64,000 bases of DNA from Chitinibacter sp. FCG-7 (lineage in GTDB: Bacteria; Pseudomonadota; Gammaproteobacteria; Burkholderiales; Chitinibacteraceae): positions 3,100,001 through 3,164,000 of the forward strand of contig NZ_CP157355.1 in assembly GCF_040047665.1 (NCBI RefSeq), in the 5' to 3' direction. Below, piece by piece: positions 6,300 to 64,000 of the stretch. The notes beneath the pieces were generated by a model. The model did no database searches, was not told the origin of the DNA, and saw only the letters and a program-made list of their open reading frames with translations. A program made the position numbers and the translations under genes. The number at the start of each line of letters is the position of its first letter. Positions within the stretch are counted from its first letter, which is position 1.

Positions 6300-6349
6300 G
6301 GGGTATTGCCCTGTAGCCTATGATTAGAATTGGCCGTAGGCATATACTC
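6299..6349. repeat. Dispersed intergenic hairpin repeat, copy 1 (degenerate)
   Basis: Left arm GGGGGTATTGCCCTGTAGCC begins on the last base of ubiX. The right arm GGCCGTAGGCATATACT is imperfectly complementary. It belongs to the family seen at 12834, 30301, 36133, 48164, 56081, 61236 and 62576, and lies between the convergent ubiX and MATE genes. Confidence 0.65.
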
Positions 6350-60191: not shown

Positions 60192-61232
60192 ATGAGCTTG
60201 TTAAAGGTAGCCAACATCAGCATCGGCTTTGCCGAGCGCAATATTGTTGAAGGCCTGTCGTTTGAATTGCAGGCCGGTGAAATCGGCTGCCTGCTGGGCG
60301 CTTCGGGCTGCGGTAAAACGACGGTGTTGCGCGCGATTGCCGGTTTTGAAGCCTTGCGTTCTGGTGAAATTCAGCTCGCCGATGTGCAGGTCTCCAGCGC
60401 CGATCAAATGGTGCCGCCGCAGCTGCGCGGTGTGGGCATGGTGTTTCAGGATTACGCGCTGTTTCCGCATCTAACGGTCGCCGCCAATGTTGCGTTTGGC
60501 CTGAAAAAACTGCCCAAGGCCGAGCAGGTCGAGCGCGTGGCCAAAATGCTGGCGCTGGTTGGCCTGGCTGATCTGGGTGCGCGTTATATCCATGAGCTTT
60601 CCGGCGGCCAGCAGCAACGCGTTGCGCTGGCGCGGGCCTTAGCGCCACAGCCCCGGCTCTTGCTGCTCGACGAGCCGTTTTCCAATCTGGACGTTGAATT
60701 GCGTGAGCGACTCGGGCAGGAAGTGCGCGCCATTCTGAAAGAAACCGGCACCACGGCGATTCTGGTGACGCACGATCAGCGCGAAGCCTTTGCGGTGGCC
60801 GACCAGATCGGCGTGATGTCCGAAGGCCATATCCGCCAGTGGGGCACGCCCTACGATTTGTACCACGAGCCGGTGGACCGCTTTGTCGCCAACTTCATCG
60901 GCGAAGGCGTGCTGCTACCCGCCCAGCTCACCGGCCCGCAATGCATTGACTTCGAGCTAGGCCAGATCTGCCGCACCGCACCGGTAGCGTGCTGCGTCGG
61001 CTGCGACATGGAAGTGCTGATCCGCCCCGACGATATCCAGCACAATGACGCCAGCGAAATGAAAGCCAAAGTGCTCGCCAAAGCCTTTCGCGGCGCGGAA
61101 TTCATGTACACGCTAGGCCTGCCCTCCGGCCGCACATTGCTGTCGCTAGTACCCAGCCACCACAATCACGCGATTGGCGAATACATTGGTATCGAGCTAG
61201 AGATGGATCACCTGATTGTATTCAAGAAGTAA
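60192..61232 (+). CDS. fbpC: Ferric iron ABC transporter ATP-binding protein FbpC
   Basis: A 346-aa ATPase. Walker A is GASGCGKT, signature LSGGQQQRVALARAL, Walker B LLLLDEPFSNLDVELRE, with a switch histidine in ILVTHDQREAF. The C-terminal regulatory TOBE-like domain ends in PSHHNHAIGEYIGIELEMD. The last 31 codons have a second, diverged copy at 62480-62575. It completes the fbpABC locus. Confidence 0.93.
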   Translation: MSLLKVANISIGFAERNIVEGLSFELQAGEIGCLLGASGCGKTTVLRAIAGFEALRSGEIQLADVQVSSADQMVPPQLRGVGMVFQDYALFPHLTVAANVAFGLKKLPKAEQVERVAKMLALVGLADLGARYIHELSGGQQQRVALARALAPQPRLLLLDEPFSNLDVELRERLGQEVRAILKETGTTAILVTHDQREAFAVADQIGVMSEGHIRQWGTPYDLYHEPVDRFVANFIGEGVLLPAQLTGPQCIDFELGQICRTAPVACCVGCDMEVLIRPDDIQHNDASEMKAKVLAKAFRGAEFMYTLGLPSGRTLLSLVPSHHNHAIGEYIGIELEMDHLIVFKK

Positions 61233-61235
61233 GTG

Positions 61236-61285
61236 GGGGTGTTGCCCTGTGGATCAACGCTTAATATATCCACAGGGCAATACCT
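61236..61285. repeat. Dispersed intergenic hairpin repeat, copy 7
   Basis: Left arm GGGTGTTGCCCTGTGGAT (ending 61254) and right arm ATCCACAGGGCAATACC (from 61268) give at least 14 consecutive pairs. It lies just after fbpC, within long direct repeat copy A. Confidence 0.8.
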
Positions 61286-61340
61286 AGATGGAGTAATCCA
61301 GCTCTTGCGGACTGAGCGTTTGCATCGCGGCGTTGGTGGG
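61284..61340 (-). pseudogene. Remnant of the sulP 3' end
   Basis: On the minus strand this segment encodes ...AAMQTLSPQELDYSI followed by TAG, the same as the C-terminus of the transporter at 62624. Upstream the similarity to sulP stops after about 57 bp, so it is only a C-terminal fragment left by duplication of the fbpC/sulP junction. Confidence 0.75.
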
Positions 61341-61449
61341 GGATCAAGGGCCAAAAACCCTGATTTTCCTCTGTGATTGCTTAGCCTTGACCATGCGCTT
61401 GCAGGGTGTGATTATTCAGCGCAATATTCTCATCATCAGCAGCGTTAAT

Positions 61450-62172
61450 ATGCGTAGCCATTTTCCTCGATTTCAGCAAGGTGCCGCTTCCGGTATTGTC
61501 CATAAACTTGGTGGTCTGCCTTGGGGTTTGCCTGTTGCACAATGGCCAATTTGCCAAGAGTGTGGACGTCCCATGAGCCATTTGGGGCAATTTCCAGCTC
61601 GTGTACCTGATACGGATTCTCCCATCCTGCCTCTACCGGAAGACGAGGTATTGTTTCTATTTAAATGTGAATGGGACAGCGTATGCAGTTTCTGGGATTT
61701 TGCCGATGGGGCGAACAGGGTGATCAGCCTGCCTCGCCAAGCATTGAGCGATGCCTTCACGCAGCCGCCGCCTGTTGAGGCGCAAGACGACGGGGAAGTC
61801 TTGAAAATCCTGCCCGAATTGGGCGTGGCAAATTGGCTGGCACAGGATGATGGCGTTTCCGCTGAGCTGGAAGCTGCGTTTTACGATTATGCCCGGCACA
61901 GCGAGCTGCCTGATCAGATTGCCAATCCTCATGAGTGGGCCAGTGAGTGGCTTACCAAGTTTGGCGGTGTTCCATTCTGGACTGCCAATGGTGCGCAAGG
62001 ACAACCTTCCTTACCGCCTGGGCGTTTGCTGCTACAAATCGACAACTGGGTCACGATGAGCGATGGCAGTGAAGCCCAATCAATTGCCAATTTTTGCTCT
62101 GACGGTATTGCCTATGTGTTTATCGACTGTACCGCTGCGCCGCACGTATTCTCGATGATGATCAATCGCTAA
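61450..62172 (+). CDS. DUF1963-like protein (YwqG-type), in duplication-flanked cargo
   Basis: A 240-aa protein from ATG 61450; the frame is open further left, with a second ATG at 61393. The N-terminal part KLGGLPWGLPVAQWPICQECGRPM contains a CxxC and a proline/glycine pattern found in DUF1963-type proteins. The C-terminal LLLQIDNWVTMSDG and DGIAYVFID fit the same family. Several such proteins have been proposed as immunity or SMI1-like accessory factors, but function here is unknown. It sits in the 1.1 kb segment between the two 200-bp direct repeats and has no homologue among its neighbours. Confidence 0.6.
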   Translation: MRSHFPRFQQGAASGIVHKLGGLPWGLPVAQWPICQECGRPMSHLGQFPARVPDTDSPILPLPEDEVLFLFKCEWDSVCSFWDFADGANRVISLPRQALSDAFTQPPPVEAQDDGEVLKILPELGVANWLAQDDGVSAELEAAFYDYARHSELPDQIANPHEWASEWLTKFGGVPFWTANGAQGQPSLPPGRLLLQIDNWVTMSDGSEAQSIANFCSDGIAYVFIDCTAAPHVFSMMINR

Positions 62173-62240
62173 ACATCTGGTGGGGCATTTCGAGAGATAT
62201 CTCAAGAGCATCGCAGAGGGTTAGCGCAGCGTAGTTGCCC

Positions 62241-62453
62241 ATGTTGGCTGCATACGCGATTTTTGCCACTACAGCTGCGGGGATGCTCCTCATGATGGAA
62301 TTCTTTATTGTGGCCAGCTCTGTTTTGCTTGCCTTATTCATCATTGCATATGCAACTTGGCTATTCATTAGTCGCTCAAAAAAGGGTGAGTCCAAATATC
62401 AAAGTTTTAGAGAATGGATAAAAAATATTCTTGAGGCGTTCTGGGGTCTATGA
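62241..62453 (+). CDS. Small two-helix membrane protein, in duplication-flanked cargo
   Basis: A 70-aa protein from ATG 62241 with a hydrophobic N-terminal third (LAAYAIFATTAAGMLLMMEF), a second hydrophobic stretch (VASSVLLALFIIAYATWLF) and a charged tail (SRSKKGESKYQSF). There is no clear ribosome site, and an in-frame TTG at 62235 is also possible. The composition is AT-richer than its surroundings. I do not recognise it; its position beside a DUF1963-like gene suggests accessory cargo. Confidence 0.45.
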   Translation: MLAAYAIFATTAAGMLLMMEFFIVASSVLLALFIIAYATWLFISRSKKGESKYQSFREWIKNILEAFWGL

Positions 62454-62479
62454 AACGCGATAAATCAGGCCTCAATAGG

Positions 62480-62575
62480 CTATCGCTGCTGCCCAGCCAC
62501 CACAACCATGCGATTGGCGAATACATCGCTATCGAGCTGGAGATGGATCAGCTGATTGTATTCAAGAAGCAGTGA
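62480..62575 (+). pseudogene. Remnant of the fbpC 3' end
   Basis: In frame, this encodes LSLLPSHHNHAIGEYIAI and on to VFKKQ with a stop (TGA at 62573-62575), a diverged copy of the last 31 residues of FbpC at 61140. No upstream portion of fbpC is present and there is no start signal, so it is a fragment. Confidence 0.8.
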
Positions 62576-62680
62576 GGGGTATTGCCTTGTAGCTAAATAC
62601 CAAATTGTCCTACATGGCAATACCTAGATGGAGTAATCCAGCTCTTGCGGGCTGAGCGTTTGCATGGCGGCGTGGGTGGA
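62481..62680. repeat. Long direct repeat, copy B (fbpC remnant + hairpin + sulP end)
   Basis: This is the second copy of the unit at 61141-61340, offset 1340 bp with no gaps. It contains a truncated fbpC end, a hairpin repeat and the true 3' end of the sulP gene (stop at 62624). Confidence 0.85.
62576..62625. repeat. Dispersed intergenic hairpin repeat, copy 8
   Basis: Left arm GGGGTATTGCCTTGTAG (62576-62592) and right arm CTACATGGCAATACC (62610-62624) pair with one mismatch. It lies in direct repeat copy B, between the fbpC remnant and the sulP end. Confidence 0.8.
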
Positions 62681-64000
62681 GATAAAGGGCGGGTGGATCA
62701 GCTGGTCGAGAAAGTCGCCGTGCCGCAGTGTGTCGAGAACCGGGCCTTTGACTTCGGCCAGATGCAGTGTGGTGCCTTGGTCGGCCAGCCCCCGCTGCCA
62801 GTCTTTTAGCGCGTTGACTGCGCTGTAGTCGATGCTGTTCACCGCCGACAGAATGAGTAATAGCTGCCGACTTGCCGGGTGCTGACTCAGCTGGGTGTTG
62901 ATCTGGGCGATGACGTTGGCGATATTGGCAAAGTACAGATTTTCATCGATCCGCACGGCCAGTACTTCGGGCGTGGTTTCTACCTGATGGCGCAATACAT
63001 TACGGTAATGTTCGCTCTGCGCGACCCGCCCAACAATGGCGATATGCGGTTGCTGGCTGCGCCACAGATACAGTGCAATGGCGATGCCGACGCCCAGCGC
63101 GATGCCGATCATGGGGCCGGTTAGCAGCACGCCGACAAAAGTCATCAGCCACGCTACGCCATCGCGGTAATCAAAATGCCAGGCTTGGCGCAGTTGCGAT
63201 AGTGAGATCATTCGGGCTGTCGCCAGAATAATCGTTGCGGCGAGTAGCGCCTGCGGCAAAAAGGCGAGCAGGGGGAGTAATGCCCACAAAGCCAATATGA
63301 TCCAGACTGCTGACAGCATACCTGCCAGGGGGGTCTGCGCGCCCGCGTTAGTGTTGACGACGGTGCGTGAGAAGCCGCCGCTGACCGGCATGCCGCCAAC
63401 GAGGGCCGAGGCCAGATTGCAATTGCCCAGTGCGAGTAGCTCACGGTTGGCGCTGATGCCGGGATGGCGAGCGGCGGGGCTGGTTTGCTGGCGCTCGGCG
63501 GCCATGCTCTGCGCCACGGTGATGCTCTGTAAAAATCCCGCCAGCCCGATCAAGAGGGCTGGTAGCAAGAGCGATTGCACGCTGGCCAGATCGAGGCGGT
63601 GTAGACCCGTGATGGCCGGGCTGCTCAAATGCGCGGCGGGCAATTGCCCCAGCGTTTTGATCTGGTGCGTGCTGTCCAGTGTGGCGAGCAGGGCTGCAAG
63701 CGCAAGCATTACCAGTAGCGGCAGAATTTTCCCTGCCATTTGCGCGGCTTTGTCGGCCACGCCCAGTTTGCCGAGTAGCTGGCTGGTGGGATTGGCGGCC
63801 AGCCACATCAGCGCTAGACCGATCAGGCCAAAGAGTACCTGGGGTAGAGCGAGTGCCTGCAAGGCGGCAGGCAGGTTGGTGACCAGCGCTGGCAGTGTAT
63901 CGCCGCGCCATACAGTGCCGAGCAGCGCGCCGGTTTGCCCCAATGCAATCAGCAAGGCGGTGCCGGCGCTAAAGCCCTGAATCACCGGCAGTGACAAAAT
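62624..64000 (-). CDS. SulP family inorganic anion transporter with STAS domain (5' end outside window)
   Basis: Open to the right edge; 458 codons remain. SulP proteins move sulfate, bicarbonate or other anions. At least seven membrane segments are visible, with the conserved NRELLALGNCNLASALVGGMPVSGGFSRTVVN. The C-terminal STAS domain is in the last 130 residues (LILSAVNSIDYSAVNALKDW, QTLSPQELDYSI at the end). The terminal stretch is duplicated at 61284. The N-terminal helices are missing because of the window edge. Confidence 0.9.
   Translation of the reverse strand: MLSLPVIQGFSAGTALLIALGQTGALLGTVWRGDTLPALVTNLPAALQALALPQVLFGLIGLALMWLAANPTSQLLGKLGVADKAAQMAGKILPLLVMLALAALLATLDSTHQIKTLGQLPAAHLSSPAITGLHRLDLASVQSLLLPALLIGLAGFLQSITVAQSMAAERQQTSPAARHPGISANRELLALGNCNLASALVGGMPVSGGFSRTVVNTNAGAQTPLAGMLSAVWIILALWALLPLLAFLPQALLAATIILATARMISLSQLRQAWHFDYRDGVAWLMTFVGVLLTGPMIGIALGVGIAIALYLWRSQQPHIAIVGRVAQSEHYRNVLRHQVETTPEVLAVRIDENLYFANIANVIAQINTQLSQHPASRQLLLILSAVNSIDYSAVNALKDWQRGLADQGTTLHLAEVKGPVLDTLRHGDFLDQLIHPPFISTHAAMQTLSPQELDYSI

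Follow-up and report, generated by a model that had tools for sequence, protein, structure and literature searches.

How can a single gene settle between two convergent core genes while both of them keep their own ends? This question is raised by the junction of an fbpC-like and a sulP-like gene in Chitinibacter sp. FCG-7, within the 64,000 nucleotides analysed here (contig NZ_CP157355.1, positions 3,100,001 to 3,164,000 of the forward strand; hereafter the window), which lie in a single-contig genome of 3.58 Mb (G000). The junction is duplicated around a cargo segment, the closest sister species (G001) shows this duplication too, with shared borders and a different cargo, and the other congeners examined have single junctions. 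The reading preferred here, to which we give about an even chance, is that the fbpC/sulP junction serves as a small site of exchange, where junction-bearing cargo DNA integrated through homology and where cargo was replaced or units of one kind integrated more than once. The features of the locus, in window coordinates, are as follows.

60192..61232, plus strand: intact fbpC-like ABC transporter ATPase gene (open reading frame, ORF; Pfam ABC_tran, E 4.5e-35, and TOBE_2)
61138..61341, plus strand: repeat copy A, comprising the real 3' end of fbpC, a hairpin and a 3' fragment of sulP (from its identity to copy B)
61237..61285, plus strand: terminator-like hairpin of copy A (inverted repeat, 18-bp stem, -32.1 kcal/mol, z -6.3)
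61342..62477, no strand: cargo segment between the copies, about 1.1 kb
61453..62172, plus strand: cargo ORF of 239 aa, DUF1963/TYPP-like (weak Pfam DUF1963 match)
62292..62453, plus strand: small ORF of 53 aa (hydrophobic start by eye; no family match near the cut-off)
62478..62681, plus strand: repeat copy B, comprising a 3' fragment of fbpC, a hairpin and the real 3' end of sulP (from its identity to copy A)
62577..62625, plus strand: terminator-like hairpin of copy B (-22.3 kcal/mol, z -3.8)
62624..64000, minus strand: sulP-like permease gene extending beyond the window (ORF; Pfam Sulfate_transp, E 5.6e-45, and STAS)

The duplication itself is clear. Positions 61141-61340 and 62481-62680 are identical at 166 of 200 sites (83%), ungapped and at an offset of exactly 1340, so that the repeat described in the sequence-only reading from a hand count (200 bp, about 83%) became neither shorter nor gapped when computed exactly. 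The runner-up ungapped match of the junction 200-mer in the window reaches 78/200 on the plus strand and 80/200 on the minus strand. A repeat finder stretches the pair to 61125-61339 and 62465-62679 at 82% identity, and identity drops to the background level at about 61138-61141 (left border) and 61341 (right border). The same program, which may miss repeats with indels or less than about 65% alike, returned no further direct repeat of at least 70 nt spaced within 8 kb across the window.

Each copy consists of the final ~93 bp of fbpC and the final ~57 bp of sulP, with a terminator-like hairpin of ~50 bp between them. Both genes are open and convergent (ORF list and Pfam), and sulP is covered along its whole length by tblastn in locus L040. 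The left part of copy A is the last ~93 bp of the intact fbpC and the right part of copy B is the 3' end of the intact sulP, which bears out the earlier geometry of one real gene end plus one fragment in each copy. Both hairpins fold well, and hence each core gene retains a terminator-like structure.

The arrangement is not private to the window strain. The comparison covered 61 genomes, five of which besides G000 belong to its genus (G001 to G005). G001, 89% identical over fbpC and copy A, has the same junction duplicated (L035, 2940-3151 and 4005-4216), with copies about 80% alike and with borders that, in an alignment read by eye, agree with those of the window to about 4 bp on the left and 1-2 bp on the right. 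The segment between them is about 0.85 kb long against 1.1 kb in the window. Blastn showed no relationship between the two cargos, with no similarity better than E 1.5. In the other four congeners the junction is single, with gaps of 200 (G002), 56 (G003), 83 (G004) and 53 bp (G005). The two things that the sequence-only reading had proposed to look for in sister strains were both found in congeners, namely an unrelated cargo in the same place (in the nearest sister species) and empty sites (in all four of the more distant congeners), and it is not the case that all relatives carry the same cargo without a repeat. The single, empty junctions are known from outside the G000/G001 pair, and none is known within it.

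Among 43 genomes of the family, G000 and G001 are the only ones with two matches that span the junction; in G005 each half of the single junction gave a partial match, and G004 had no match at that threshold. Farther away, the fbpC-sulP interval can hold other genes and no direct repeats: a 690-697 aa ORF in 5/5 genomes examined of genus g11, and a 406 aa ORF in G019. In a contig scan the nearest named match, among the matches listed, was a metagenome-assembled genome of an uncultured Deefgea, at 71% in fbpC. The single junction of G002 (L036, about 2541-2677, counted on the minus strand of that locus) contains a nested palindromic element of ~137 bp, with outer arms of 26 bp at 92% and an inner palindrome of 59 bp at 78%.

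The hairpins of the two copies are also sites of a dispersed palindrome, GGGTATTGCCNTGTAG...CTACANGGCAATACCC, which is found in the window at 6302, 36172, 61237-61285 and 62577-62625. Its half-sites number 37 in G000, 27 in G001 and 5-9 in G002-G005, so that it is several times commoner in the first two than in their congeners, and a reversed-pattern control gave 0 in 6/6 genomes. The second arm was intact at 11/27 half-sites inspected, and the fold of the site at 6302 is no stronger than expected by chance. The palindrome looks terminator-like or REP-like.

What do the two cargos encode? In the window, the 239 aa protein matches Pfam DUF1963 at E 0.0021 and 18.9 bits, below the cut-off of 23; the description of this ORF as DUF1963-like is thus backed by a weak match that falls short of the Pfam threshold. 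By eye, its first part shows GGLP, LGQ and one CxxC (CQEC). For comparison, the available part of the source on the TYPP superfamily lists a GGxP motif and a conserved Q, with paired CxxC motifs in a subset of members, and proposes a chaperone-like role (PMC4275035). The protein is rare: it was found in 1/41 relatives, namely G000 itself and not G001, and in 2/399 genomes of the order, G000 and G408. The G408 homologue (59-60% identity) itself has no Pfam match; an ORF resembling methylmalonyl-CoA mutase (by eye, not scanned) lies ~3 kb upstream of it. Plasmid records gave 4 distant matches only (27.5-33.3% identity), the viral contigs searched gave none, a search of solved structures gave no match below E 0.07, and PADLOC gave no match at E 1. 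The second ORF, of 53 aa, had been called a small membrane protein; a hydrophobic start is visible by eye, no family match comes near the cut-off, and the ORF may be no gene. An inverted repeat at the cargo borders, CCTGATTT / AAATCAGG (61359-61366 and 62462-62469), was rejected, as 24% of null windows score equally.

In G001 the cargo is an SMI1/KNR4 (SUKH-1) gene with one internal stop; with an X in place of the stop, it matches the Pfam family at E 3.3e-5 and 24.9 bits, below the cut-off of 25.4. Its protein occurs in 2/43 genomes, G001 and G010 (42%), and not in G000, and no recognised toxin gene lies beside this lone SUKH-1-like gene inside the cargo. SUKH is one of the two superfamilies that dominate the immunity proteins of polymorphic toxins (PMC3482391), and SUKH proteins are described as orphan immunity proteins in gut bacteria (PMC12247911, preprint), according to the available parts of both sources. 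The G001 cargo resembles such orphan immunity genes of polymorphic toxins or the type VI secretion system (T6SS) in being a lone SUKH-1-like gene. Unlike them, it carries an internal stop, and the DUF1963-like gene of the window does not belong to an immunity family listed in those parts; DUF1963 is absent from the first 300,000 characters of PMC3482391. No result obtained here supports an immunity role for the cargo of the window.

If the junction is an exchange site, as preferred here, a piece of DNA with a cargo gene and a junction copy would integrate through junction homology, and the cargo would be left between two copies, of which A completes fbpC and B completes sulP. As each core gene would keep its own terminator-like hairpin, neither would be harmed. 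The cargo could then be replaced, or the same kind of unit could integrate more than once, through the junction arms, and it is for this step that the same arrangement and borders with another cargo in G001 argue. We infer integration by homologous recombination, an origin of the arm in a relative and replacement of the cargo.

The differences between the copies bear on the origin of the arm. On the fbpC side they fall at third codon positions in 8/10 cases in the window and 12/17 in G001, i.e., 20/27 jointly, while decay in place would put about half of them there (P=0.055 for the window, 0.072 for G001 and 0.0096 together). Judged from these counts, the bias favours an arm that for a time ended a functional fbpC gene in some other lineage. 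The silent divergence at this end of the gene, looked at for raised recombination in the flanking core genes, is high but not specific: third positions differ between G000 and G001 in 11/30 of the last 30 fbpC codons against 59/316 in the rest (p=0.03), and another 30-codon window reaches 13.

Several results weigh against a reading of this kind. The sulP side has no silent bias, with third positions accounting for 2/4 and 5/15 differences (7/19), and the test over all four fragments gives P=0.15. The earlier claim that one copy came from a related strain is favoured by the fbpC side, where the changes are mostly silent, and not by the sulP side or the four fragments together. Nor do the sites establish a single event in a common ancestor: the four copies (A and B in both genomes) are nearly equidistant, at 79-83%, and the pairing of like copies (A with A, B with B) has 1 site in its favour, while the two alternative groupings have 3 each. 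The two genomes also differ in apparent age. At codon positions 1 and 2, the fragments of G000 changed at 4/96 sites against 10.6 expected since the species split (P=0.015), and those of G001 at 15/97 against 10.7, with no deficit, the expectation being calibrated by the third-position divergence of fbpC and sulP. Since its fragments carry fewer such changes than expected, the window arrangement may be younger than the split, despite borders matching those of G001. A younger arrangement would fit with units of one kind having integrated repeatedly, or with cargo and arms having been replaced by DNA from a relative. Further, the cargo borders in G001 are transposon ends (see below), which allow a transposition-linked origin. 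Finally, no circular or free donor was found among the records searched: none of the 72,556 plasmid or 50,697 phage records matched the junction, and two exact patterns of it were absent from the viral contigs searched.

The explanation offered in the sequence-only reading was single crossover of a circular, or homology-flanked, DNA with the junction of a related strain. Taken strictly, as a single recent event that involved circular DNA and is private to this lineage, it would yield the geometry of A and B, and both the mostly silent differences on the fbpC side and the little decay of the window fragments agree with it. However, the duplication in G001 with nearly the same borders would then need a coincidence or the same carrier twice, and no such carrier turned up in the plasmid, phage and viral records. 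As an event private to the window lineage, it is a possible but unlikely account.

The statement that the integration needs no transposase is weakened by the borders of the G001 cargo, which are inverted GTGGTCTGTCCC(C/T)TATT ends. The A-side border reads GTGGTCTGTCCCCTATT, and the B side is its inverse with one change; the exact 17-mer of this end is present in 32/399 genomes of the order. In G019 (L165), a Y1 (IS200-like) transposase gene (Pfam, E 2.8e-11) lies between a pair of GTGGTCTGTCCC(C/T)TATT ends, each of which has its ...GACCACG side towards that gene. In G001, at fbpC/sulP, it is copies A and B that this side of the ends faces, so that the cargo lies outside, not inside, the polarity of the element. 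From such borders it may be supposed that REP-type ends of an IS200-like (Y1, RAYT) insertion bracketed a captured junction fragment, and that transposition or recombination between ends brought the cargo. The first ~40 bp of the window cargo can be aligned with the A-side border of G001 (37 columns, partly repeat sequence; score 28, reached by 0.07% of null windows). Y1 transposase is, with 7 matches, the commonest family among 112 ORFs within 1.2 kb of an end in 27 loci, a count not meant to speak for or against an enrichment. On the other side, the window has no such end at its B-side border, where the alignment score with G001 is at the null mean, and the motif with up to one mismatch has no copy in G000. 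This geometry around a core-gene junction is confined to G001 among the genomes examined. IS200-like/RAYT transposons are not known to duplicate 200 bp of their target. The borders hint that an IS200-like element took part at some time; as the source of the whole arrangement, such an insertion is rather doubtful.

The 27 loci were taken from the list of 17-mer sites regardless of content and do not include every listed place. There are 156 ORFs near ends in all, and the 44 from L165 and L218-L221, which had been chosen for other reasons, were left out of the count. The same 112 ORFs include, among the 25 of 64 families shown, DDE_Tnp_1 (2), HTH_3 (2), an AbiE toxin (1) and an AbiE antitoxin (1). 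A general tie of GTGGTCTGTCCCC ends to toxin or immunity genes was considered and dropped, as the families near ends in these loci show it not to be general. Toxin-type genes do lie near such ends in G001:C32 (an Rhs-AHH tip), in G013 (Fic; a pre-toxin VENN match there is below its cut-off) and in G076 (toxin-antitoxin genes). Direct repeats of at least 80 bp ending at GTGGTCTGTCCCC ends were seen in 6/33 test loci, of which L218-L220 had been chosen for their clusters of ends, the 13 control loci being without ends; spaced direct repeats of any kind occur in 16/33 test and 4/13 control loci.

Three of these places are described here in their own right. L218 (G076:C14:3500-18500) has 13 ends of the GTGGTCTGTCCCC type in one orientation over about 11 kb, eight of them exact 17-mers, among genes of toxin-antitoxin type (MqsRA, HI1420/Gp49, two PIN genes and TacA plus GNAT); it also has direct repeats of about 100-200 bp, several of which end at GTGGTCTGTCCCC ends, and it looks like a cassette array. 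In G001:C32 (L050, 1209-2254), a 376 bp piece with GTGGTCTGTCCCC ends splits an Rhs tip whose AHH nuclease domain is recognised by Pfam; by eye this piece resembles the end of a Y1 transposase gene, which was not confirmed by Pfam. Similarly, L219 (G183:C63:38500-47000) has, by eye, a Y1 transposase-like gene, seven copies of ends of the GTGGTCTGTCCCC type and adjoining genes that look toxin-antitoxin-like (unscanned).

A tandem duplication of the junction by replication slippage, followed by insertion of cargo between the copies and decay in place, would likewise yield A and B. The state of the G001 copies agrees with decay, as the sulP fragment is decayed with stops and the fbpC fragment has two single-base gaps. 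This sequence of events is nevertheless quite improbable, since in each of the two species the cargo and the duplication share their borders on either side, and the fbpC side is, in both species taken together, too silent for decay in place, which is not so for the sulP side. Chance similarity or an assembly artefact is rejected as having next to no probability: background matches reach 80/200 at most where the copies have 166/200 identical sites, the structure recurs in an independent species' assembly, G000 is a single contig, and the repeat finder reported no other such repeat in the window.

Insertion with long target duplication was reportedly described in Helicobacter pylori by Nobusato et al. 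in 2000, and the anatomy of the fbpC/sulP locus is of that kind, as far as the available parts of the later sources describe it. According to these parts, such insertions in H. pylori are frequently linked to restriction-modification genes and are suggested to be a mode of gene mobility (PMC1643837, PMC3031569). In both cases foreign genes lie between direct copies of a target that is single in relatives, the copies here being ~204 bp long and 83% alike, with the same anatomy in G001. The differences are that the cargo here is a DUF1963-like or SUKH-like gene rather than the usual restriction-modification genes, that the copies are 17-20% diverged, and that transposon ends stand at the cargo borders in one of the species. 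Homologous-recombination hotspots, in which variable cargo lies between the same core genes with no integrase seen and is exchanged by recombination of the flanks (PMC5635113, from the part available), are similar in that different cargo lies between the same two core genes, fbpC and sulP. Unlike the locus here, they are, as far as that part shows, not defined by a duplicated junction, and here two species only have cargo with duplication. As for RAYT/REP elements, the G001 cargo borders match the ends that bound the Y1 gene in L165, while no transposase gene is present in the cargo and the ends are wrongly oriented to bound it in the manner of an ordinary element. Judged against literature on the pattern and not on the locus, the addition made here is that two sister species share the duplicated junction and differ in their one-gene cargos.

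A bolder proposal, which we regard as improbable, is that of a small mobile unit whose homology arm is a captured core-gene junction fragment, which is bounded by RAYT/REP ends and has landed repeatedly at fbpC/sulP in different species. Its single-gene cargos, protective genes among them, would be interchangeable, and both core genes and their terminators would be rebuilt each time, amounting to site-specific integration without an integrase. If true, it would explain the identical borders, the unrelated cargos, the different apparent ages and the near-equal distances among the four copies.

The stakes are moderate, as the same pattern was described earlier for restriction-modification genes. 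If the fbpC/sulP junction is an exchange site, it would provide a two-species example of single genes entering and being exchanged at a fixed place with no integrase, and the duplicated junction would be a readable scar from which the age and direction of such events could be estimated. An inexpensive screen of whole genomes also suggests itself, namely for duplicated core-gene junctions around one-gene cargos.

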